Shown one piece after another: positions 2,295 through 19,646 of a stretch of 20,380 bases of DNA (position 1 is its first letter; every line of letters begins with the position of its first letter). This stretch comes from a virus. The translations under genes were made by a program, and so were the position numbers. The notes beneath the pieces are model-generated. The model was given only the letters and a program-made list of their open reading frames with translations, did not search any database and had not been told where the DNA came from. The DNA lies in the IMG/VR virus record IMGVR_UViG_3300030109_001402, positions 1 to 20,380 of that record; one strand, given 5' to 3'.

Positions 2295-3382
2295 TGCCAC
2301 TTATTCTTAATAACCAATTAGGTAACAATTTAGAAATTGAAGCTACAATAGATGGCCGAGAGTTTGTAGATTGGCTTACTATAAAATATACTGCTGAAGC
2401 AAACAAAGCTCGTTCTATATCTTTTTCGATAGCAGGGCTAGAATCATTAGAACGATGTAGGTTAGGCGGTATTGTTAGAGTAGAAATAGGTAGAGGTGGG
2501 CAAGCTCATAACTTAACGTTTGAAGGAATTATACAACAAGTCCGACCTTCGGTTTCAGTAAGTTCGGTAACTGCTGTAGATTTTATATCGCAACTAGCTA
2601 ATTCTGAAATTGTTAGATATACAGAAGAAGATGTTGTTGGTCATGATTTGTATTACTTAGCAGCAGATGCAGCAAACTACAAGTCCGTTGATACTTCACA
2701 ATTGTTAGAAGGTTCAGGTTTAATGGTAACTTCTGACCTTGCACCTAAATTAACAGGCCACATGACACGTAAAGATTTTATTGATAAATGTTTTACTTAT
2801 ATGGTAAAACCTTTTGATGACATATATCACGAAGCTTTGACTTATGTTCCTTGGCGTTATGCAATACATGAGCGTGGTTTGATGGAGTTTTACTTAGCAG
2901 ATTATGCTCACATTCGTGACCGTTCAGTTATTACACTTTCTCCTGAACATATGAATTTAGTAGGCGAAGGAGTTCAAGCTCAAATAGATACAACTCGTAT
3001 GTGTAACTCGGCAAGATTTGTAAGCAGCAATGATGAATCAGTATTTTCTACAGTCTCAGATGCTAGCAAAATTAAACAATACGGACCTCATGGTAAAGTA
3101 TTTACTTTTGATACTGACCGAAAAGATAAACTAGAAGAGTTAGCTTTAGATGAAGTGCGTCGATTTAGTGACCCTACAATTACATACACAGTAGAAATGG
3201 CTGATGGTGAGTGGATTGCTTTAGGTGATTTAGTTAGGGTGCGTATGCCTTCGTTAAAACGTGATGAGATTTTACCAGTTGTAAGATACGAAACTACTAT
3301 TTCTGAAGAAATAACTACACTGTTAACTCTAGGAGAACCAGCTCTTAGTATGGCAGAATACATAGACTTACTAAAATCATAG
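2294..3382 (+). CDS. Baseplate hub / late-control-D-like tail protein
   Basis: A 362-aa protein, start ATG fused to the previous stop (TAATG). The N-terminal ~110 residues contain a beta-rich pattern ending in FEGIIQQVRPSVSVSSVTAVDF, which matches the oligosaccharide-binding-like first domain of phage hub proteins (gpD of P2, gp27 of T4, and tail-associated proteins of siphoviruses). The C-terminal third (…VEMADGEWIALGDLVRVRMPS…) resembles the later hub domain where a 'path' of beta strands re-forms the ring. Such proteins form the trimeric or hexameric ring connecting tail tube and tail tip. Family assignment is by pattern recognition only; no catalytic motif is visible. It is the last gene before the accessory block and is followed by a promoter. 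Confidence 0.6.
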   Translation: MPLILNNQLGNNLEIEATIDGREFVDWLTIKYTAEANKARSISFSIAGLESLERCRLGGIVRVEIGRGGQAHNLTFEGIIQQVRPSVSVSSVTAVDFISQLANSEIVRYTEEDVVGHDLYYLAADAANYKSVDTSQLLEGSGLMVTSDLAPKLTGHMTRKDFIDKCFTYMVKPFDDIYHEALTYVPWRYAIHERGLMEFYLADYAHIRDRSVITLSPEHMNLVGEGVQAQIDTTRMCNSARFVSSNDESVFSTVSDASKIKQYGPHGKVFTFDTDRKDKLEELALDEVRRFSDPTITYTVEMADGEWIALGDLVRVRMPSLKRDEILPVVRYETTISEEITTLLTLGEPALSMAEYIDLLKS

Positions 3383-3386
3383 GCAT

Positions 3387-3398
3387 GGTTATATAGCC
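3387..3398 (+). promoter_or_regulatory. TATA-like promoter GGTTATATAGCC (copy 1)
   Basis: A 12-bp near-palindrome just after the tail gene, centred about 39 bp before the ATG at 3432. The same core recurs at 4453 and 5008 at very similar distance from the next start, with close variants at 7592 and 13061. A TATA box near -26 would put transcription start near 3418, followed by a good AGGAG ribosome site at 3421-3425. Promoter identity is inferred from recurrence and position. Confidence 0.65.
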
Positions 3399-3431
3399 TT
3401 ATCTTCTGGCTTGATTTGCTAGGAGTCAAAC

Positions 3432-3593
3432 ATGGATTATAAATGCGACAATTGTGACAACATAGGATTACGTCAGTTTTGCTATGAGCATAAGAAACAT
3501 CATGGTCACGGTATGGTGCATCTTGAAAAACAACATAAGAACGGGTCGTTTGCATATTGGTTATGCAATGCCTGTGCGGAGAAAGAACGATGA
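3432..3593 (+). CDS. Small zinc-ribbon protein (53 aa)
   Basis: First gene of the unit behind the 3387 promoter, with AGGAG six bases before its ATG. It has CDNC at residues 5-8 and CNAC near the C-terminus, with a His-rich middle (YEHKKHHGHGMVH), which fits a metal-binding treble-clef or zinc-ribbon fold. The spacing CDNC…GLRQFCYEHK is reminiscent of small phage zinc proteins. Its stop overlaps the next start (ATGA), implying translational coupling. Its target (DNA, RNA or protein) is unknown; a regulatory or host-takeover role is a guess. Confidence 0.6.
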   Translation: MDYKCDNCDNIGLRQFCYEHKKHHGHGMVHLEKQHKNGSFAYWLCNACAEKER

Positions 3594-3727
3594 AAGAGTT
3601 TGACAAAGTAATAGAAAAATGGGAAACGTGGATTAAAAAAATAAAAGAGGACATAAATGATAGAGACAAAAAAGACAAAGAACAACAGAATACTAAACAA
3701 AAAAGTACACGAGATAGTAAAGACTAA
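3590..3727 (+). CDS. Hypothetical charged helical protein (45 aa)
   Basis: Starts in a 4-bp ATGA overlap with the zinc protein upstream. The sequence begins MKEFDKVIEKWETWIKKIKE and is almost wholly Lys/Glu/Asp/Gln, so it is probably one amphipathic helix with a disordered tail. Its 3' half overlaps the next ORF (3657) by 71 bp in another frame, which is unusual even for this compact genome. Either this gene or its overlap partner may be the less important one. No function is recognised. Confidence 0.45.
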   Translation: MKEFDKVIEKWETWIKKIKEDINDRDKKDKEQQNTKQKSTRDSKD

Positions 3728-3806
3728 GACTAAATGCTGTGGAGAACCAGCTATAGTTCTGATACTTTGCCCTAAGTGTCACTCTACTATGAGAGTCGAG
3801 CAATGA
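3657..3806 (+). CDS. Com-like small zinc-finger protein preceding mom (49 aa)
   Basis: ATG 3657 has a GAGG ribosome site about 9 bases upstream. The N-terminal half is Lys-rich and basic. The C-terminal half carries CCG followed 11 residues later by CPKC, a probable metal site. Its TGA stop (3804-3806) is immediately followed, in the same frame, by the GTG start of the Mom-like gene. In phage Mu the small zinc-finger protein Com is encoded directly upstream of mom and activates mom translation; the position, size and Cys pattern here suggest an analogous regulator. Homology to Com cannot be shown by eye. It overlaps the 45-aa ORF at 3590. Confidence 0.55.
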   Translation: MIETKKTKNNRILNKKVHEIVKTKTKCCGEPAIVLILCPKCHSTMRVEQ

Positions 3807-4451
3807 GTGGGCTTAAAAGATAGATACGAAATAAAAACTATTAGCTGTAAATCAGCTATGGAAGTTTTAGTAAAGAATCATTACTTACATCGAAAGTGTC
3901 CATGCACTCATGCTTATGGTTTATTTGATACTAAAACATTAAATCTGTGGGCAGTTCCAGAAATGGTAGGATGTATTACTTATGGTACGCCAAGCAGTTC
4001 TCCTTTAAGAAAAGGAGTATGTGGAGAAGAAGAACAATATAATGTAATTGAATTAACTAGGTTATGGATTCAAGACGGCACTCCTAAGAATGCTGAGAGT
4101 TTCTTAATAGGAAATACAATTAAATTAATAGATAAAGAAATAATTGTTAGTTATGCTGAAATGGAACAAGGTCATTTAGGTATAGTATATCAAGCAACGA
4201 ATTGGATTTACACAGGACTAAGTGCTAAACGTACAAACTGGACAGTTGAAGGTCTTGACAAACATAGTCATACTTTAGCAGATAAATACACTTCAAAAGA
4301 AATTAGACAAAAATATGGAGATAAGTTTACATTAGAAGATAGGCCAAGAAAACATAGATACATTTATTTTAACACAAATGCTAAACGCAAAAAGAAGTTA
4401 CTTAAGAAATTAAATTATCCTATTCAACCTTACCCTAAAGCTATAGGATAA
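3807..4451 (+). CDS. mom: Mom-like DNA adenine modification protein
   Basis: A 214-aa protein matching the Mom family of phage Mu, a GNAT-like enzyme that converts adenines in viral DNA to N6-carbamoylmethyl-adenine and so shields DNA from restriction. Visible family blocks are HYLHR (25-29), GCITYGTP (55-62), ELTRLWIQD (82-90), KNAESFLIG (94-102), the strongly conserved SYAEMEQGHLGIVYQATNW (115-133) with YTG after it, and a basic RKHRYIYF (181-188). Length is close to Mu Mom (about 230 aa). The only plausible start is GTG directly abutting the TGA of the upstream zinc-finger ORF, with no strong ribosome site, which suggests coupled or activated translation. It is followed at once by a new promoter. 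The chemistry in this virus is inferred from the family. Confidence 0.85.
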   Translation: MGLKDRYEIKTISCKSAMEVLVKNHYLHRKCPCTHAYGLFDTKTLNLWAVPEMVGCITYGTPSSSPLRKGVCGEEEQYNVIELTRLWIQDGTPKNAESFLIGNTIKLIDKEIIVSYAEMEQGHLGIVYQATNWIYTGLSAKRTNWTVEGLDKHSHTLADKYTSKEIRQKYGDKFTLEDRPRKHRYIYFNTNAKRKKKLLKKLNYPIQPYPKAIG

Positions 4452-7107: not shown

Positions 7108-7374
7108 ATGGGCTTTGTTACATTAGAGAAAAGTGAAAGAGAAGAATTGTTTAAAATGAAAAATCCTTATGCAATGAGTGTTAAACAATTAGAAGTAGCA
7201 TTAGATGCTAACGCTAAAGAACAATTAGGAGTTAGAGAATATATTCAAAACCTAAAAAGATATGGTGGTTCAAAAAGCGATATTGATACTGCTAACAAAG
7301 TATGGTTAGCTTTAAAAACAATTAACACACAATTATCTAACATTAAAAGAAGAGCTATTCAACAAGGTAGATAA
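7108..7374 (+). CDS. Hypothetical helical protein (88 aa)
   Basis: Behind the TATAAATAA element, with AAGAGG four bases before the ATG. The protein is helical, with a Lys-rich middle (MSVKQLEVALDANAKEQLGV, then REYIQNLKRYGGSKSDIDTA) and a basic end. No Cys pairs, signal or membrane segment are seen. Its general look, small, basic and helical, is similar to the bodies of the small tandem proteins at 15328-17054, but it lacks their leader. Function is unknown. Confidence 0.65.
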   Translation: MGFVTLEKSEREELFKMKNPYAMSVKQLEVALDANAKEQLGVREYIQNLKRYGGSKSDIDTANKVWLALKTINTQLSNIKRRAIQQGR

Positions 7375-7375
7375 G

Positions 7376-7573
7376 ATGGGTTACTCTAGTTTAGATGCTG
7401 ATGAATTAAGTAAAAGAAGAGGTGACCGATATGCAGGTGACATTGATGACTTTGCAGATTTTGTAGTTTACAAACTTCAAGATATAAAAAATTCATTAAA
7501 ACGAAAAAATTATAATGCAGCTATGTCAACTCTCGATAAAACAATTAGAGAATTAGATAGGGCAAGAAGATAA
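7376..7573 (+). CDS. Hypothetical helical protein (65 aa)
   Basis: Begins two bases after the preceding stop, so the pair is one operon. The sequence is MGYSSLDADELSKRRGDRYA, an acidic middle (GDIDDFADFVVYKLQDIKNS) and a basic final helix (STLDKTIRELDRARR). The start MGYSS and the basic helical end recall the head-region small proteins, but similarity is too weak to group them. It is followed by a TATA-like element at 7592. No family is recognised. Confidence 0.6.
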   Translation: MGYSSLDADELSKRRGDRYAGDIDDFADFVVYKLQDIKNSLKRKNYNAAMSTLDKTIRELDRARR

Positions 7574-13318: not shown

Positions 13319-13890
13319 TGGTTAAGAAAATCGGAAAGAGACAAAAGAAGCAAAAGAAAAGCTGGACTAAGTTTGTTAAAACTAATCCAGTTCCAGATGA
13401 AACAACTATTCAAAACATAATGAAAGATACACAGAGATTGCTTGAAGGAGTAAGTGAAGCTCAAGCTCGACAATTAATTATTGATGAATATAATAATAAT
13501 GAAATCTATGTTAATAACAAATATCAAGTAGCTATTACTAGACAGAATCCAGAAAAACCTAAGTTTGGTTTTGTTTTAGATAACAACGGAGAAAGAATGA
13601 GTAGCGGTTCTTTTGGAGTAATTCACCTTTCTGTTAAGACTCACGACAAAGAGCCAATAAGAGATTGGAGAGATATGCAAAGAATAAAGAATGAATTGGT
13701 TGGTGAAGAACATGAGGCAGTAGAATTGTATCCAGCAGAAAGTAGATTAGTTGATACTGCAAACCAATATCATATGTGGGTGTTTGATAAACCAGTAAGT
13801 GATGGTGCATACTATCCATTTGGATTTCATGACAGATTGGTAAATTATGATAAGCCGTTAAGCGGAGCTGTACAAAGAGGTAAAGAATAA
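13318..13890 (+). CDS. DUF7694-like conserved viral protein (190 aa)
   Basis: N-terminal 25 residues are very basic (VKKIGKRQKKQKKSWTKFVK). Residues about 66-155 form an alpha/beta domain with GSFGVIHLSVKTHDKEPIRD, W-x-D-M-x-R-I-K (117-124), a G-E-E…AVELYPAESR strand and NQYHMWVF. This order is what I recall of the small domain now called DUF7694, found in many phages with unknown function. It is embedded by TAATG overlaps between a zinc gene and the peptidase gene. Name is from memory; it should be treated as tentative. Confidence 0.6.
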   Translation: MVKKIGKRQKKQKKSWTKFVKTNPVPDETTIQNIMKDTQRLLEGVSEAQARQLIIDEYNNNEIYVNNKYQVAITRQNPEKPKFGFVLDNNGERMSSGSFGVIHLSVKTHDKEPIRDWRDMQRIKNELVGEEHEAVELYPAESRLVDTANQYHMWVFDKPVSDGAYYPFGFHDRLVNYDKPLSGAVQRGKE

Positions 13891-14429
13891 TGCAGACGAC
13901 ATTAGATAGCTTTACAGCCAAACCAAAGCCTGTTAGAAACAAGAAAGGTAGAGCGCATAAGAATCCTAACGGAACGTCTTGGTGTGGACCTACTGCATTG
14001 ACTGTTCTTACTGGAAAAAGGTACGACATTATTGAGAAAGATTTACTTAAAGCAGTTAACAAAAACAAATCAACTGGTGGATTTAATACACGTACAGCAT
14101 CATTTGTTAGAAAACCAAAACGCAAAGTAAACGAAATCAAAGGAATGTACAATCATGAAATGCGTAATGCATTATACAGATACGGATACAGTATGAATCA
14201 TTCTAGTCTTTATGGTTGCGATACTTTTAGACAATGGACTAAAGAGTCATACGGACAACGTGGAAAGAAATGGTATCTAATACAAACTACTAGTCATTAC
14301 TTAGTTGTAAAAGGAAACAAAGTATGGGATAACAATACACCGCCAGAAGGAGTACCTATTACTAAATCAAGACTTTACAAAAGAGCTAGAATACAAAACG
14401 TATATGAAATAGAGAGGTTAAGAAAATAG
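13890..14429 (+). CDS. Papain-like (C39/NlpC-type) cysteine peptidase
   Basis: 179 aa. GTSWCGPTALTVLTG (28-42) is the catalytic Cys motif of papain-fold peptidases (Cys32 at the start of a helix). TTSHYLVVKGNKVWDNNTPP (133-152) gives the His strand (His136) and the acidic or amide partner (Asp147/Asn148) in the usual order. The first 27 residues are basic and possibly disordered. It may act in virion maturation, on the host wall at entry, or as a deubiquitinase-like effector. The position directly before the prohead protease favours a structural or maturation role, by inference. Overlaps the previous gene by TAATG; ends with TAG. Confidence 0.7.
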   Translation: MQTTLDSFTAKPKPVRNKKGRAHKNPNGTSWCGPTALTVLTGKRYDIIEKDLLKAVNKNKSTGGFNTRTASFVRKPKRKVNEIKGMYNHEMRNALYRYGYSMNHSSLYGCDTFRQWTKESYGQRGKKWYLIQTTSHYLVVKGNKVWDNNTPPEGVPITKSRLYKRARIQNVYEIERLRK

Positions 14430-14467
14430 TTTAATACTATTTCTACAATACAATGAATAATAGCCAA

Positions 14468-14482
14468 ACAGTTTTAAAGGAT
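14468..14482 (+). promoter_or_regulatory. Promoter element AACAGTTTTAAAGGA
   Basis: Matches AACAGTTATAAAGGA at 17923-17937 in 14 of 15 bases, and both end exactly 18 bases before an ATGAGTGATT start. The T/A-rich core is centred about 25 bp upstream of ATG, as for archaeal TATA boxes on leaderless transcripts. Neither gene has a clear ribosome site. Confidence 0.6.
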
Positions 14483-14500
14483 GATTTATCTGTAGATTCG

Positions 14501-15325
14501 ATGAGTGATTGTGTATGCAAGAATGTGAACACCGAATGGTCTACGTCTCGCAACTGGTACAACGATAGAGTAATGGATACATATATTTCAGCTCCTATTG
14601 TCGATAAACAGGGCGACATGATTCCTACAGAGACCATAAAAGAGTCAATGGAATTTTACATGAAGCATGGAATCTACTCATACAAACATGATGAGATACC
14701 AATTGGACAACCATTAGCTTACAAGATTAAAGATGGTAAAGTATTATTGAAAGTAGGCATTCACAATAAACTAGACATGCATGATAAAGTCTGGAAAGAA
14801 ATACAACAGTATGGTTCACGTGGAGCAAGCAGTATTAGGGGAGAAGCTTTGAATCAAAACAAAGTGTGTCCACCTAACGAAGCTTGTTTTACAAAAATAG
14901 ATAAGCTAGGACTATGGAGTGTTAGCTGGGTAGGAGATTCTCCAGCCAATCCAGAGGCAACAGTACAAACTGTGTCAATGGCAAAAGAAGAAGAACCTAA
15001 AAAAGAAAAAATATACGTAGACAAACCGTCTGATGCTCCAGAAGGCGCAGACGTAAAGAGAGGAAAAAGAGGCGGTTACTATTACTACGAAACAAAAAAA
15101 TCAGAGGAAAACGTGTCAGAAAACAAGTTAGAAGACATTTCGCATATAAAGAAATGTGCAAAATGCAATAAGCCAGTAAAAAAATGTGGGTCTTGTAATA
15201 AGCCCGTAGGAAAGAAAATGAACAACGGACAAATCATTAATCGCATGTTTCGATTGTTAAATACATATGCATTAAATCCTAAATTTGAACGAGAAATGGC
15301 AGATTTAATTGAAAGGTTACAATAA
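14501..15325 (+). CDS. Prohead serine protease (XkdF/S78-like) with zinc-knuckle tail
   Basis: 274 aa from ATG 14501, preferred to ATG 14453 because the promoter at 14468 would lie inside the longer form and because the scaffold gene begins with the same MSD-x-C start. Residues 23-150 form a prohead-protease domain: DKQGDMIPTETIKESMEFYM, then H63 in YKHDEIPIGQPLAYKIKDGK, and the Ser motif RGASSIRGE (Ser110/111). Residues 171-197 (a YVDKPSDAPEGADVKRGKRG stretch, then GYYYYET) form a linker, followed by two knuckles CAKCNKPV and CGSCNKPV (219-234) and a helical end. It would cleave scaffold, capsid and other prohead proteins during maturation. The domain call is good; substrates are inferred. 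Confidence 0.82.
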   Translation: MSDCVCKNVNTEWSTSRNWYNDRVMDTYISAPIVDKQGDMIPTETIKESMEFYMKHGIYSYKHDEIPIGQPLAYKIKDGKVLLKVGIHNKLDMHDKVWKEIQQYGSRGASSIRGEALNQNKVCPPNEACFTKIDKLGLWSVSWVGDSPANPEATVQTVSMAKEEEPKKEKIYVDKPSDAPEGADVKRGKRGGYYYYETKKSEENVSENKLEDISHIKKCAKCNKPVKKCGSCNKPVGKKMNNGQIINRMFRLLNTYALNPKFEREMADLIERLQ

Positions 15326-15327
15326 TA

Positions 15328-15714
15328 ATGAGCTACAATCAAACAAACAACATACACAACCCTTTTGAGGGTGAAGAATTAGAAAAAGGTCCAAGAGAGG
15401 AAATGGACTATGCAAGATTTATACAAAACAATGGCACAGTATCTCAAGCAATAGCTAGTGATTTAAAAGGCATGTTTACAGCAAGATTAATGTTCTTAAG
15501 GGATTACAATCAACAAGCATTAAGTAGATTTAACAAAGTATATCGACAACCATTAGATTCAGACGCAAAAAAATTAAAAGAGTTTGTAGAGCAATGTTTA
15601 CGAGAAACTTTAGAGTTAATGGTCGAAGGCAGTAAAATTGTAAAAAAAGCAAACGATTTAGACAGGTTAATGGATGAAACTTATAAAATGGCAAATCCAA
15701 AGAGGAGACGATGA
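15328..15714 (+). CDS. Leader-tagged small head-region protein 1 (128 aa, MSYNQ leader)
   Basis: Starts two bases after the protease stop. It opens MSYNQTNNIHNPFEGEELEK; the MSYNQ start is shared with three following genes. The remainder is one helical domain (MDYARFIQNNGTVSQAIASD … LKEFVEQCLRETLELMVEGS) ending in a basic tail (NPKRRR). Basic, helical and encoded beside protease and scaffold, it would suit a protein packaged with DNA inside the prohead, like T4 internal proteins, but that is inference. No known domain is recognised in the body. Confidence 0.7.
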   Translation: MSYNQTNNIHNPFEGEELEKGPREEMDYARFIQNNGTVSQAIASDLKGMFTARLMFLRDYNQQALSRFNKVYRQPLDSDAKKLKEFVEQCLRETLELMVEGSKIVKKANDLDRLMDETYKMANPKRRR

Positions 15715-16085
15715 GTTTTAATCAACACATAGGAGAGATTAACAGCAGGTCAGTAGAGAAAGTTAATCCTTATCCTCGAAGACCAGCAGATACAAAAAAA
15801 GAGTTAAAAAAAGCATTAGACAAGCTTGTTCTTCTTGAGCAAAATTTGATTAAGCTTATATCAGATAGCAATGAAATTGAAAATCATATTGTTAGAGCTA
15901 GTTGGAATCCTAGAGCGCCAAGGGGTCAGCGAAGTTTAATATCTGGAAATGCAGGTAAAGACGTTGAAGCTGCTGAAGCTGCTATTATTAGATGGCGTAC
16001 GGAAGTATATACAAAGACGTTACCTCCGTTAAAAAAGGCACGACAAAAGTTAGCAAGTGGTACAGCAGGAGTGATGATGCGATGA
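15711..16085 (+). CDS. Leader-tagged small head-region protein 2 (124 aa, MSFNQHIGE leader)
   Basis: ATGA overlap with gene 1 and GAGGAG just upstream. It starts MSFNQHIGEINSRSVEKVNP; the first nine residues equal those of the gene at 16082. The body is basic: a long helix (KKELKKALDKLVLLEQNLIK) and then a Arg/Gly-rich turn with RASWNPRAPRGQRSLISGNAG, ending in a further basic helix. Only the leader, not the body, resembles the neighbours. Possibly an internal or minor capsid protein processed by the protease. Confidence 0.7.
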   Translation: MSFNQHIGEINSRSVEKVNPYPRRPADTKKELKKALDKLVLLEQNLIKLISDSNEIENHIVRASWNPRAPRGQRSLISGNAGKDVEAAEAAIIRWRTEVYTKTLPPLKKARQKLASGTAGVMMR

Positions 16086-16375
16086 GTTTTAATCAGCATA
16101 TAGGAGAGACTAACACTCTGTTAGCAAAAGCAAGAGGCGATGATTTAATTAATGAAGAAGTTATTCAAAGATGGTGGAAAGTAAGATTTCCGCAACATTC
16201 AATGGACAGAGCTTATTACAAAGAATGGGTAAGTAGATTAAGAGCAGCATACCGTGATGAAGGTCCAGATGGATTCCCTTGGCAAGCTGACAATCAAAGT
16301 ATTCGCACTTGGAAAAGAGTGACAGGAAGAAGACAAGTAAGACTTAATACAAAGGATGAGGCTACAATTCGATGA
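16082..16375 (+). CDS. Leader-tagged small head-region protein 3 (97 aa, MSFNQHIGE leader)
   Basis: The ORF stays open to an in-frame start at 15992, but ATG 16082 (ATGA overlap with the previous stop) restores the shared leader MSFNQHIGETN and is clearly the right start. The body is Arg/Trp-rich (EEVIQRWWKVRFPQHSMDRA, then DGFPWQADNQSIRTWKRVTG), unlike its neighbours. Codons of the leader differ from the 15711 copy at synonymous sites, showing that the peptide is conserved. Function of the body is unknown. Confidence 0.7.
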   Translation: MSFNQHIGETNTLLAKARGDDLINEEVIQRWWKVRFPQHSMDRAYYKEWVSRLRAAYRDEGPDGFPWQADNQSIRTWKRVTGRRQVRLNTKDEATIR

Positions 16376-16716
16376 GTTACAACCAGTACAAGGGAGTTAT
16401 TCACAAACATTTAGTTAAAGACGACCCATGCTGGGAAAACTACGAGATGGTAGGAACTAAGGTTCAAGACGGTAAAGAAGTACCTAACTGTGTTCCTAAG
16501 AAAGAAAAAGATGATGAGCCTGTAAAAAAATTAAGTAACTTAGAAGCAACTACAGAAATGCATGAGGCTTCTATGGAATTAGCAAGAATGATTTATAAAG
16601 TTGGAAGAGATGAAGCAACTGCAAGAAGATTACAACCAAAAATGGTTAAAATTATAAATCGTTTAACAAAAAAATTATATAACTTAAAACTTTATTATAG
16701 AGCAGGTCAAAGATGA
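16372..16716 (+). CDS. Leader-tagged protein 4 (114 aa) with PCW…VPNCVP motif
   Basis: ATGA overlap with gene 3. After the leader MSYNQYKGVIHKHLVKDD comes PCWENYEMVGTKVQDGKEVP then NCVP (residues 19-42). This is a short motif I recognise from many uncultured marine tailed-virus and giant-virus proteins (PCW-x-GY-x-x-x-G-x-K … VPNCVP), whose role is not established. The rest is a basic helical domain (ATTEMHEASMELARMIYKVG … KMVKIINRLTKKLYNLK). The pairing of leader, motif and helix suggests a modular virion protein. Confidence 0.72.
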   Translation: MSYNQYKGVIHKHLVKDDPCWENYEMVGTKVQDGKEVPNCVPKKEKDDEPVKKLSNLEATTEMHEASMELARMIYKVGRDEATARRLQPKMVKIINRLTKKLYNLKLYYRAGQR

Positions 16717-16760
16717 ACTACAACACAGCAGAACTATGTAAGGATTGCAAGATGCCTGTT
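16713..16760 (+). repeat. Leader DNA repeat, copy A (48 bp)
   Basis: Encodes MNYNTAELCKDCKMPV. It differs from copy B at 17051-17098 at only two bases, both silent, while the sequence after it is unrelated. A duplicated 5' coding module of this kind fits gene-end exchange by recombination. Confidence 0.85.
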
Positions 16761-17054
16761 GAGAAAAGAAATCATGAAACTGATTACAGAGAGTTTGGAC
16801 CGATAGACAGGAAGTCAATTCGATTAGTAGCTCATTTAACAGATATAAATTATCACACTGAAGCTCGCATGGAATTAGCTGGAGCAATAGGAGCTAATCA
16901 ATTAGTAAATGCTTATCGAAATATTCAACGAGAACAAGACAGGGTAGGCCATTTACCACAAAGATTAAGTAATAAAAGAAATCAATTAGACCGTACATTA
17001 GAAAGAATGGTATTGAGATTTAAAAATGGCAGAGAAGCTATGAGGGCATTATGA
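16713..17054 (+). CDS. Leader-tagged protein 5 (113 aa, MNYNTAELCKDCKMPV leader)
   Basis: ATGA overlap with gene 4. The 16-residue leader contains CKDCKMPV, similar to the two CxxC-x-KPV knuckles near the end of the protease. The body is a basic helical domain: TEARMELAGAIGANQLVNAY then RNIQREQDRVGHLPQRLSNK and a final Arg-rich helix. The leader is repeated, nearly base for base, at the start of the next gene, whose body is unrelated. This supports a leader that works independently of what follows. Confidence 0.72.
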   Translation: MNYNTAELCKDCKMPVEKRNHETDYREFGPIDRKSIRLVAHLTDINYHTEARMELAGAIGANQLVNAYRNIQREQDRVGHLPQRLSNKRNQLDRTLERMVLRFKNGREAMRAL

Positions 17055-17098
17055 ACTACAACACAGCAGAACTATGTAAAGATTGCAAGATGCCTGTC
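17051..17098 (+). repeat. Leader DNA repeat, copy B (48 bp)
   Basis: Second copy of the 48-bp leader module, 338 bp downstream of copy A. It has 46 of 48 bases identical. Confidence 0.85.
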
Positions 17099-17407
17099 GT
17101 AAAAAATGAAAGGCTGATAGCAAACGAAATTAAACAACAGATAGGAATATCCACATTGATGTCATTAGGAGCGCATAAATTTCAGTATATGAGAAGAGAT
17201 AGTCGTATTCGTGGAGGTCTTGCATTTGCGATTAAATACAGAAGCAATCAAAGAGGCTATGTTGAAATAAGAGTAAACCCAATGGATATGTATGATATTA
17301 CAATAAAAGATTCTAAAAAAAGAGTAGTAATGACTAGCAATGACGTTTTTGCAGATTCATTAAGAAGAGTATTAGAAAGCGGATTTAAGAAACTACGCAG
17401 AGAATAA
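17051..17407 (+). CDS. Leader-tagged protein 6 (118 aa) with common viral alpha/beta domain
   Basis: ATGA overlap with gene 5; same leader MNYNTAELCKDCKMPV. Residues 38-118 (SLGAHKFQYM, GGLAFAIKYR, GYVEIRVNPMDMYDITIKD, DVFADSLRRVLESGFKKL) match a small domain I recognise from many phage and large-virus proteins (pattern 'LGA-x-x-F … I-x-L-x-x-x-D-x-Y-x-V … D-V-Y-x-D-x-L-x-x-x-F-E'), of unknown function. That domain normally has other N-termini, so its fusion to the leader here supports modular exchange. The stop overlaps the next start (TAATG). Confidence 0.72.
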   Translation: MNYNTAELCKDCKMPVVKNERLIANEIKQQIGISTLMSLGAHKFQYMRRDSRIRGGLAFAIKYRSNQRGYVEIRVNPMDMYDITIKDSKKRVVMTSNDVFADSLRRVLESGFKKLRRE

Positions 17408-17895
17408 TGAAAACTAAAAAACTTAAAGCACCAAAAGGTTATCACTGGATGCAGTTAAAAGATGGTCCTGCACTTATGGAAGGTGATTATGAACCGCATG
17501 ATGGAGCTATGGAGTATGCAACATTTATATTAATAGAAGACCACAAAGACGAACGTATTGTAAAAGCAGAGTATCAAGGTAAGAAAGTAGAGTTAAACAA
17601 TCCTTTTAGATTATCAGGAGAAAAAAAGAAGTTTGGAGTTTACGTAAAGAATCCTAAAGGTAATGTTGTACAAGTTAAGTTTGGCGACCCTAACATGGAT
17701 ATAAAACGTGATGACCCAGACAAACGTAGACAGTTCAGAGCAAGACACAATTGCGACAACCCAGGCCCAAAACATAAAGCAAGATATTGGTCTTGTAAGA
17801 TGTGGAGTTCTAAGAATGTGTCCGATGTATTAAAAACAAATTACAACAATGTTAGCATGTGTGATAGTTGTAAAAAACCTAAGCAATATAGCTAG
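17407..17895 (+). CDS. Viral protein with RARHNCDNPGP…YWSCKMW domain (162 aa)
   Basis: TAATG overlap with gene 6; no leader tag at its N-terminus (MKTKKLKAPKGYHWMQLKDG, PALMEGDYEPHDGAME). Residues 71-143 carry KKFGVYVKNPKGNVVQVKFG, DPNMDIKRDD, RRQFRARHNCDNPGP and KARYWSCKMWSSKNVSDVLK. This is a strongly conserved block I know from marine tailed viruses and giant viruses, often in capsid-maturation proteins. The end carries CDSCKKPKQ, the same knuckle style as the leaders and protease tail. It is likely a virion or prohead component. Role unproven. Confidence 0.72.
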   Translation: MKTKKLKAPKGYHWMQLKDGPALMEGDYEPHDGAMEYATFILIEDHKDERIVKAEYQGKKVELNNPFRLSGEKKKFGVYVKNPKGNVVQVKFGDPNMDIKRDDPDKRRQFRARHNCDNPGPKHKARYWSCKMWSSKNVSDVLKTNYNNVSMCDSCKKPKQYS

Positions 17896-17955: not shown

Positions 17956-18534
17956 ATGAGTGATTTCTGTACTTGCGGTCAGCAAAAGACCCTTGAACTT
18001 GACTACGTAGTCAAGGAAGACGAAACCGAAGAAGTCCTCCCTCCAGCAGACGATACAGAAAAAGCTGAAGAAGAGGATGTCGAGGAAGAAGAACTTTTAG
18101 AAGAAGAGGGCAAGGGATATACCCGAAAAGACATATCTGAGTTAACATCTTTGTTAAAACAGACTCTAGCACATCTTACAAAAGAAGAGCATGAGGAAGA
18201 AGAAGACGAAGAAAAAGATATGCATATGGAAGAAGACGAAGAAAAAGATATGCATATGGAAGAAGAAAAGAATATGCACTATGACGAAGAAAAAGAAATG
18301 GATGAAGAAGTTCCGATGGCAGAACCTATGCTAGAAGAAGAAGAAGTATCTATGTCTGTCAAAGAAGCATTGAAAACTTTGGAAAAGTCTGGAATGTCCG
18401 TCTACGCTGGAAGTAAAACAACTCCTGCAACACGCAGAGTTGTAAGGGAAAAGCCTGTAGCTATTAACTGGTCAGAATTTTCTAAATCAGTTGATGAGAT
18501 ACACCGCATGGAAGAAAGAACTGGAGCAAACTAA
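17956..18534 (+). CDS. Scaffold-like acidic prohead protein (192 aa)
   Basis: Directly upstream of the capsid gene and behind its own promoter. It starts MSDFCTCGQQ, then is extremely acidic and low-complexity (Glu/Asp over residues 20-130), with tandem decapeptides KDMHMEEDEE. It ends with a helical segment (VSMSVKEALKTLEKSGMSVY) and a basic or hydrophobic C-terminus (TRRVVREKPVAINWSEFSKS) that could contact capsid protein. Order, charge and length are those of a scaffolding protein, expected to be degraded by the prohead protease. No sequence family is recognisable because such proteins diverge fast. The short MSD-x-C start is shared with the protease. Confidence 0.72.
   Translation: MSDFCTCGQQKTLELDYVVKEDETEEVLPPADDTEKAEEEDVEEEELLEEEGKGYTRKDISELTSLLKQTLAHLTKEEHEEEEDEEKDMHMEEDEEKDMHMEEEKNMHYDEEKEMDEEVPMAEPMLEEEEVSMSVKEALKTLEKSGMSVYAGSKTTPATRRVVREKPVAINWSEFSKSVDEIHRMEERTGAN
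18201..18260 (+). repeat. Perfect 30-bp tandem repeat in the scaffold gene
   Basis: Two perfect adjacent 30-bp units (18201-18230, 18231-18260), followed by a degenerate third. Each codes for ten residues including KDMHMEE. It probably varies in copy number by slippage without harming a disordered protein. Confidence 0.9.
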
Positions 18535-18536
18535 AT

Positions 18537-19646
18537 ATGGCAGGAATGAGTTTTGAAGAGTATGTGCAAGCATACTACGGTGGCACGCTTGGTATAGCTA
18601 AAAGATACGGTATTCAGAAAGCAGATGATACATTTGAAACATCTGACCCAGCAGGGGCTTTCAACACCATGTATGGTGCAGCCGTATTTAATCAGCTAAA
18701 CACCAAATCAGAAGTATTTAAACTTCTTAAGAAAGAGGCATGGACCCAATCAGGTTGGAGAGTTTTGACAGGTCGTCACGCAACAACCGCAGGTCTAGCA
18801 GAGGGAGCAGCTTTCCCTGATACTGACAAACCAGATATCACAGAAGTTACAGCAACTCTAAAAGAAGTTGTAACACCTTGGGAAGTTACAACCAGAGCTG
18901 AATTGCTTTCAGAAGCAGACGACGGAATTAAGGGAATCCTTAACTTCTTGAGAACTGAAAACGCTGAAGCACACACATTCTTTATGGACCAAATGTTATT
19001 GGCAACTGCTGACACAGCAGCAGGTAATAACATGGAATCTTTAGACCGTGTAACTCTAAGCGATGCAGCAGCACATGCAACATTATCTGCAAGAGCAGAC
19101 ATTGATATGTATGACATTGACCGTTCAGGAGCAAGCTGGGCAGATGCAACTGTTTCACACAACAGTGGAAGTGACAGAGCATTAACACTAGCTATGTTAG
19201 ATACAGTTATTCAAGGTGCATTAGAAAACGGTGTAAACTACAGTGATTTAATTCTATTAACTGGATATGATACATATCAAGATTTAAAAGCATTAATGTT
19301 ATCTACAACTAACAATACATTTAGAGCAGATTTATCAGCAGCAGGAGCAGGAAATGCAAATGGTGTTGTTGGAGAAGCTGGTTTGAATTTCGATTCAAGA
19401 GTTGGCGCATACGATGGAATACCAATATTCCTATCACAACACGTTGTAAAGGATACAACTTCCAGAATCCACTTGTTGGATATGGGTAACCTAGCAGTTC
19501 GTGTAGCAGCACCAACAACCTATGTAGACAATACTAACTTAGCAGTACTACAAAAACTAAGCAAAGAGTTTGCTTTTGTAACTGCTGGTGAATTGATTTG
19601 TTACAAGTTTAACACAAGTGGTAGCGTAAGAGACTTGAACGCTTAA
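18537..19646 (+). CDS. Major capsid protein (HK97 fold)
   Basis: 369 aa, three bases after the scaffold stop. N-arm MAGMSFEEYVQAYYGGTLGI; then FNTMYGAAVFNQLNTKSEVF, a spine-helix region (TPWEVTTRAELLSEADDGIK, GILNFLRTENAEAHTFFMDQ), a P-domain and A-domain with AMLDTVIQGALENGVNYSDL, ILLTGYDTYQDLKALM, a loop YDGIPIFLSQHV (the '-G-I-P-V-' turn common near the end of HK97 proteins), and a C-terminal AVRVAAPTTYVDNTNLAVLQ … FVTAGELICY strand set. Length and strand order fit an HK97 capsid protein with a separate scaffold. It should be the most abundant virion protein and forms the icosahedral shell. Confidence 0.88.
   Translation: MAGMSFEEYVQAYYGGTLGIAKRYGIQKADDTFETSDPAGAFNTMYGAAVFNQLNTKSEVFKLLKKEAWTQSGWRVLTGRHATTAGLAEGAAFPDTDKPDITEVTATLKEVVTPWEVTTRAELLSEADDGIKGILNFLRTENAEAHTFFMDQMLLATADTAAGNNMESLDRVTLSDAAAHATLSARADIDMYDIDRSGASWADATVSHNSGSDRALTLAMLDTVIQGALENGVNYSDLILLTGYDTYQDLKALMLSTTNNTFRADLSAAGAGNANGVVGEAGLNFDSRVGAYDGIPIFLSQHVVKDTTSRIHLLDMGNLAVRVAAPTTYVDNTNLAVLQKLSKEFAFVTAGELICYKFNTSGSVRDLNA

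Follow-up and report, generated by a model that had tools for sequence, protein, structure and literature searches.

Most known sets of packaged and injected proteins with a shared loading tag come from T-even phages, in which the injected proteins studied so far are counter-defence proteins. The internal proteins of T4 are cut after [I/L]-x-E by a gp21-type protease. IPI, IPII and IPIII of the T-even phages are small and diverse, with only a short N-terminal packaging leader in common; mature IPI is proteolysed, and the set differs between related phages (PMC3012670, PMC12373910). In T4, Ip1-3 inhibit different GmrSD enzymes (PMC12373910). In phage P1, the prohead protease processes DarA (PMC9024508, PMC12810830); the Dar proteins have no recognisable common leader (PMC9024508), and body swapping is not described there. 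In SPN3US, several head proteins carry N-terminal propeptides that a single prohead protease removes at a short motif (PMC10052503). These propeptides are mostly longer than 100 residues (two are 20-24), and the available passages of that report do not describe the swapping of cargo behind fixed leaders. Polyvalent proteins (Iyer et al. 2017) are multidomain proteins predicted to be packaged (PMC5512222).

The DNA analysed here, referred to as the window, comprises an entire IMG/VR record (20,380 bases, G+C 36%) from a group of marine tailed viruses that are probably archaeal. Its head region encodes, in this order, terminase, portal, Mu-F-like, HK97-gp10-like and C39-like proteins, the prohead protease, six small tandem genes, a GYHWM/RARH protein, a putative scaffold and the major capsid protein; all features given below lie on the plus strand. 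The six-gene leader array (15328-17407) is located between the protease gene (14453-15325) and the acidic putative scaffold (17956..18534; pI 4.3). As in T4, a short conserved N-terminal leader stands on unrelated bodies, but several leader families are present here rather than one: about eight unrelated families, together with a tail on the protease, occur at two loci. Bodies also move between leaders and onto the protease, which is HVTV-1-like with a predicted cut after K, not E. Since leader sequences, protease family and predicted cut residue all differ, the array is, as far as sequence comparison goes, a variant outside the T4 family. We consider it probable that the leaders act as N-terminal capsid-targeting propeptides, which the protease would cut after hydrophobic-x-K, freeing the cargo in the head. 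The use of N-terminal propeptides or tags for head cargo in T4, SPN3US and P1 supports this role. The preliminary description had proposed a cleavable prohead-targeting tag and considered it undescribed for such viruses. Selection on the leaders, placement in the head region, protease-fused bodies and a common junction favour the cleavable tag, while the notion of one tag has given way to multiple families; no such system was found for archaeal-type tailed viruses in the open-access literature.

Each of the six tandem genes was found with its described leader (MSYNQ, MSFNQHIGE or MNYNTAELCKDCKMPV), and neighbouring genes overlap by ATGA. The first gene, g1 (15328..15714), consists of leader MSYNQTNNIHNPFEGEELEK (15328-15387) and a body that begins GPREEMDYARFIQNNG; this body (RERMRYARFIQ) forms the protease C-terminal tail in five relatives, namely L009, L013, L014 and two other contigs. 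In g2 (15711..16085), leader MSFNQHIGEINSRSVEK (15711-15761) precedes the body VNPYPRRP..., which stands behind an MSFNQHIG leader in the window and behind MSYNQT in L004, L005 and L015. The third gene, g3 (16082..16375), carries leader MSFNQHIGETNTLLAK (16082-16129) and body ARGDDLINEEVIQRWWK; its true start is 16082, and the start at 15992 in the mechanical list of reading frames is too early. Leader MSYNQYKGVIHKHLVK of g4 (16372..16716) occupies 16372-16419 and is followed by the CW module, DDPCWENYEMVGTK...DDEPVKK (16420-16530), and a further body. In L005 and L011 the CW module recurs behind the MSFNQHIG leader, and the clade B protease contains a fused version. The last two genes pair leaders MNYNTAELCKDCKMPVEK (16713-16766) and MNYNTAELCKDCKMPVVK (17051-17104) with the bodies of g5 (16713..17054) and g6 (17051..17407). 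Within the window, the two MNYN leaders are identical at 46/48 bases and the two MSFNQHIGE leaders at 25/27, while the bodies are mutually dissimilar, as the preliminary description had stated, with no BLASTP match below E 0.1 among the six. Its statement that the cargo is mostly basic also holds: 96% of bodies have a pI above 8.5 (median 9.9), which fits association with DNA. Pfam, PHROGs and PADLOC assigned no function to the bodies, and PADLOC, whose library consists mainly of defence genes, gave no match as an indication of anti-defence similarity.

The prohead protease domain (14453..14986) contains invariant H79 and S126/S127 and ends in VSMAK, a putative cut site. Comparison of profiles (hhalign) relates it to the protease domain of HVTV-1/HCTV-1 (E 6.7e-6, probability 85%), and the alignment pairs the hydrophobic-x-K ends, VSMAK here with VVSK in HVTV-1/HCTV-1. 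For the HVTV-1/HCTV-1 domain itself, the match to Peptidase_S78 is weak (E 0.0026) and falls below the curated cut-off. No direct Pfam family match was obtained for the window protease, and Peptidase_S78_2 (PF14550) matched neither the window, its relatives nor HVTV-1. Homology to known prohead proteases, combined with the conserved His and Ser, identifies the protein as a predicted S78-like caudovirus prohead protease. Herpesvirus protease is an expected relative of prohead protease, and several of the best fold hits of the AlphaFold model were to the KSHV protease, at non-significant scores and from a poor model (mean pLDDT 50). The capsid protein model is similarly poor (mean pLDDT 43), with capsid proteins among its fold hits; both models are too poor to place a cut site, and their fold hits weigh little. 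Behind the domain, the protease carries a tail tag, CAKCNKPVKKCGSCNKPVGK (15155..15214), that resembles the MNYN leader motif CKDCKMPVxK, followed by a fused candidate cargo body, KMNNGQIINRM... (15215..15322).

Searches with the protease and the capsid protein gathered 9 and 60 loci, respectively, which fall into two sets, clades A and B. Clade A (L003-L015, L019, L035, L077 and others) carries the array. About 12 relatives have it between protease and scaffold, with leaders specific to position and differing bodies, and in the complete cases counted each contig has between 5 and 8 leader genes. Run against 2.9 million viral contigs, a degenerate DNA pattern of the MNYN leader gave 12 stretches, all of them in this virus group; leader sharing is far beyond chance. 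Clade B is without the array, and in many of its members the protease is a long polyprotein with several small modules (CW, DUF5824-like, GYHWM and AEYQG/RARH); in L021, L045 and L047, one reading frame comprises the protease, any modules and the scaffold. In having long modular proteins among the head genes, clade B resembles polyvalent proteins, but differs in that its modules adjoin the prohead protease at putative cut sites, whereas clade A encodes them as separate genes, some with leaders. The description of the array as filling the interval between protease and scaffold is accurate for the six leader genes but incomplete, because a seventh gene (17407..17895; phrog_7595) also lies there and a second array is present at 7108-7573. 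The seventh gene encodes the GYHWM and AEYQG/RARHNCDNPGPK modules, which also occur within the clade B protease polyprotein, and its product ends in a leader-like CDSCKKPK.

This arrangement would also suit an assembly-core role, in which leaders place the array proteins in the prohead to build or size the head, after which the proteins are largely degraded or expelled. The position of the array genes between protease and scaffold and the joining of clade B modules in one chain with both agree with such a role, and P1 DarA is packaged yet also affects head assembly (PMC12810830). However, the number and identity of bodies differ between close relatives, which is odd for a conserved role, and the bodies are basic and diverse whereas the scaffold is acidic. 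We therefore regard an assembly-core function as unlikely.

The exchange of bodies supports the capsid-targeting reading. In a set of 97 sequences (leader-bearing proteins or protease tails), each leader keeps to its gene position and bodies are mobile: the same body occurs under different leader families in 52 protein pairs, and 9/29 body clusters (single-linkage, the largest merging several bodies via fused genes) have more than one leader context. Four of these nine include a protease tail. For example, the MNNGQI body is the protease tail of the window but stands behind MGYSSL in L091 and behind MSYNQT on contig 3300025300 (L072). Likewise, the MFQGL body forms the protease tail of L006 and stands behind MGYSSL in five contigs; the KRDPELYKMF body ends the protease of L015 and, in a more divergent form, that of L035, and stands behind MNYN in L009. 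With leaders fixed to position and bodies swapped at the junctions, the cargo appears exchangeable and the loading signals kept. The preliminary description had regarded bodies lacking a leader as evidence against a targeting tag. Some such bodies exist, but they then form part of the protease, preceded there by a similar CxxCxKPVxK motif. Because the protease itself must be inside the prohead, fusion to its C-terminus would provide a second route, and the bodies common to both routes argue most strongly for leader and fusion having one and the same function.

Unrelated leaders also end alike, in hydrophobic-x-K (EELEK, NPLAK, HLVK, MPVEK, DLQK and ELFK), as do protease tails (KPVGK or KTIEK). 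Of 97 leaders or protease tails, 96 have the motif no more than 16 residues beyond the leader core, and 85% have it within 8 residues; body sequence would give 27% and 13.5%, respectively. One leader, MNYNTAELCKDCKKVVAETDY on contig 3300001450, is without the K. Sequences of the same leader family are related to each other, which makes such counts non-independent. For nine swapped bodies in 18 contexts, hydrophobic-x-K was always 0-8 residues upstream of the shared block (null 0.19), and at distance 0 in 9/18 (null 0.023), with block starts set by the analyst. The motif was first noticed in the same leaders that were later tested, and the independent data on it come from the capsid protein and clade B only. 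In clade B, VALAK directly precedes the scaffold block ADKANNFINETNKIE in L047; in L046, VALAK is followed by a module of ~180 aa ending in RIVK and then by ADKANNFINETNKIE, so that the insertion is exact. AEYQG in clade B is preceded by RIVK, PIGK or PINK. The capsid protein begins with a highly conserved N-segment of ~28 residues, which ends in I-x-K (x = Q, S, A, E, K or R) and gives way to variable sequence; an alignment of 12 members shows no variation at I26 and K28. In the window, this predicted N-terminal propeptide, MAGMSFEEYVQAYYGGTLGIAKRYGIQK, spans 18537..18620, with a predicted cut after K28. Unrelated leaders, the protease domain, the fused modules of distant relatives and the capsid N-segment share a hydrophobic-x-K end, and swaps and insertions occur at or just after it. 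A K before the cut has precedent in HK97 gp5, which is cleaved at K103/S104 (PMC10275583). Within bodies, hydrophobic-x-K is not depleted (151 observed vs 149 expected). The motif is also short, so that the protease would need extra specificity or limits on access, and hydrophobic-x-K cannot by itself be the full recognition signal.

The leaders might instead be duplicated gene starts, serving only as recombination or translation-initiation cassettes with no role as protein. The ATGA overlaps and the near-identity of leader DNA within the genome could indeed seed homologous recombination. Across relatives, however, synonymous sites of the MNYN leader vary and the protein hardly does: its 23 genes comprise 21 DNA versions and 13 protein versions, with pS 0.465 and pN 0.066. 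Leaders overall show pS of 0.17-0.47 against pN of 0-0.11. In the other families, some with few distinct sequences, pN/pS ranges from 0 to 0.26; for most leaders it is 0.10-0.26. This variation at synonymous sites with a near-constant protein argues against pure DNA copying or an RNA or DNA element alone. The greater conservation of leaders than of bodies, which the preliminary description had proposed as a test, is accompanied by purifying selection on the leaders as protein. The convergence of unrelated leaders on a hydrophobic-x-K end and the similar motif inside the protease, where a start codon is unnecessary, also speak against cassettes, and we judge this explanation very improbable.

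The second array lies just upstream of the terminase genes and has the leaders MGFVTLEKSE, MGYSSL and MSFNQHLGKTN. In the window, its first gene (7108..7374) has leader MGFVTLEKSEREELFK (7108-7155) and a body, and its second (7376..7573) has leader MGYSSLDADELSK (7376-7414) and a body whose relatives sit behind an MSFNQHxGKTNSP leader in other contigs. The DNA pattern for MSFNQHxG led to contigs in which a MSFNQHLGKTNSP... gene follows MGFVTLEKSE... and MGYSSL... genes, the three-gene set lying a short distance upstream of the gene for the terminase small subunit; of the three, the MGFVTLEKSE and MGYSSL genes, which come first, are present in the window. This pattern is shorter than that for MNYN and also matches many unrelated HNH/NUMOD-like phage proteins. 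The MSFNQHNGDG/MSFNQHNGAG proteins of many other phages were rejected as relatives, since their bodies are HNH/NUMOD-like and the sequence continues differently. Across the seven contigs examined, no leader gene falls outside the two head/packaging-region arrays. Leaders far from the head module, which the preliminary description had named as counter-evidence, therefore exist in the sense that some are ~7 kb from the protease, but these adjoin terminase genes. That the leaders direct proteins to another site in the infected cell, such as a host complex or the membrane, with the head operon providing late expression only, would accommodate this separation of the arrays and bodies without known function, but it is the least probable explanation, as some of the same bodies are prohead protease tails and the junction motif is common to the capsid protein and the protease domain end.

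Under the capsid-targeting mechanism, each array gene would encode a cargo protein, small and mostly basic, that its leader brings into the prohead during assembly; entry into the core would depend on binding to the scaffold, the protease or the capsid protein. The prohead protease would then cleave the leader-body junction after hydrophobic-x-K and release the body inside the head, where it would stay with the DNA; delivery to the host is probable. On the second route, a body would be carried in at the protease C-terminus behind its CxxCxKPVxK tag. Targeting, cleavage, retention in the head and injection are all inferred from sequence. The least certain part is a counter-defence role of the cargo, a reasonable guess by analogy with the inhibition of GmrSD enzymes by T4 Ip1-3. 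More tentatively still, and with the odds rather against it, these marine archaeal-type tailed viruses may possess a plug-in cargo platform, in which capsid protein, protease, scaffold and cargo all follow one hydrophobic-x-K cut code, and a common pool of small basic proteins circulates through three or more loading modes (the two leader arrays plus the protease tail). Such a platform might include zinc docking by paired CxxC half-sites of leaders and protease, and would constitute a fast-evolving injected arsenal outside the T4 lineage. If the capsid-targeting reading is true, an independent case in a distant, probably archaeal, group would make exchangeable-leader cargo loading a recurrent strategy. 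Every protein with these leaders would then become a virion candidate whose mature N-terminus is predicted, and the bodies would form a list of counter-defence candidates.

The protein encoded at 18537..19646 is an HK97-fold major capsid protein of the phrog_24667 group (E 3e-49), SU10_MCP/T5-like, with 34% identity to HVTV-1 and a sequence match to the T5 capsid protein at E 0.0067. Its closest annotated relatives belong to haloarchaeal Druskaviridae and a Methanofastidiosa virus, and a published tree places Druskaviridae among marine archaeal viruses (PMC8651126). The Druskaviridae HVTV-1 and HCTV-1 share with the window a related capsid protein and protease, a large protease gene immediately preceding that of the capsid protein, and hydrophobic-x-K at corresponding places: in the capsid protein, M-S-K in HVTV-1 and V-S-K in HCTV-1, each followed by AD. 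They differ in having no leader array between protease and capsid gene and a much longer capsid N-terminal region. The literature passages available gave no published N-terminus of the mature HVTV-1 capsid protein. These affinities make a marine archaeon the likely host. Two scans of genome contigs in the host search yielded no relatives of the capsid protein, and the affinity of the terminase is ambiguous, with Bacteroides and haloarchaeal phages among others. Some modules are also found in marine Roseobacter and Pelagibacter phages; the g6 body is related to phrog_9437 and to a protein of Pelagibacter phage Skadi that is without a leader.

The gene at 17407-17895, between the leader array and the putative scaffold, carries a module of the form AEYQG...RARHNCDNPGPK..ARYWSCKMW, which also occurs in the related loci L016, L020, and L040. 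This module sits in a separate gene in the window and within the protease polyproteins of clade B, the relatives that lack the array. It is also found in phages of Roseobacter, Pelagibacter, Flavobacterium, and Methylophilales, and is annotated as "HVA1 family" in one Roseobacter phage. Near the N-terminus of the acidic putative scaffold (17956-18534), a cysteine pair (CTC, CSC, or CDC) is kept both in the window and in clade B scaffolds. CxxC motifs occur twice in the protease tail and once in the MNYN leader, and it is possible that scaffold, protease tail, and leader dock through zinc by pairing of these cysteine motifs.

In L131 (vir519, a Methanofastidiosa virus), inspection by eye places PIQN-ADD in the capsid protein and TVLN-SDL in the protease region at the position of the predicted hydrophobic-x-K cleavage motif, with asparagine replacing lysine at both sites. 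In this single virus, cleavage specificity may have changed jointly at the two proteins. Another relative, L035, encodes a single gene (3327-3896) with two cargo bodies separated by the leader remnant KDCKMPVNK, likely a recombination product of adjacent array genes.

Proteins starting with MSFNQHNGDG or MSFNQHNGAG constitute a separate phage set, present at many loci in L079-L129; their brief likeness to the MSFNQHxG leader appears coincidental, as NUMOD/HNH-like repeats follow.

Directly 5' of the prohead protease gene lies a gene (13890-14429) with a weak match to the papain-like family Peptidase_C39_2 (E 1.6e-4). Further upstream, 3807-4451 strongly matches PF25680, the Mom family of DNA-modification proteins (E 4e-42), which suggests modification of the viral DNA.
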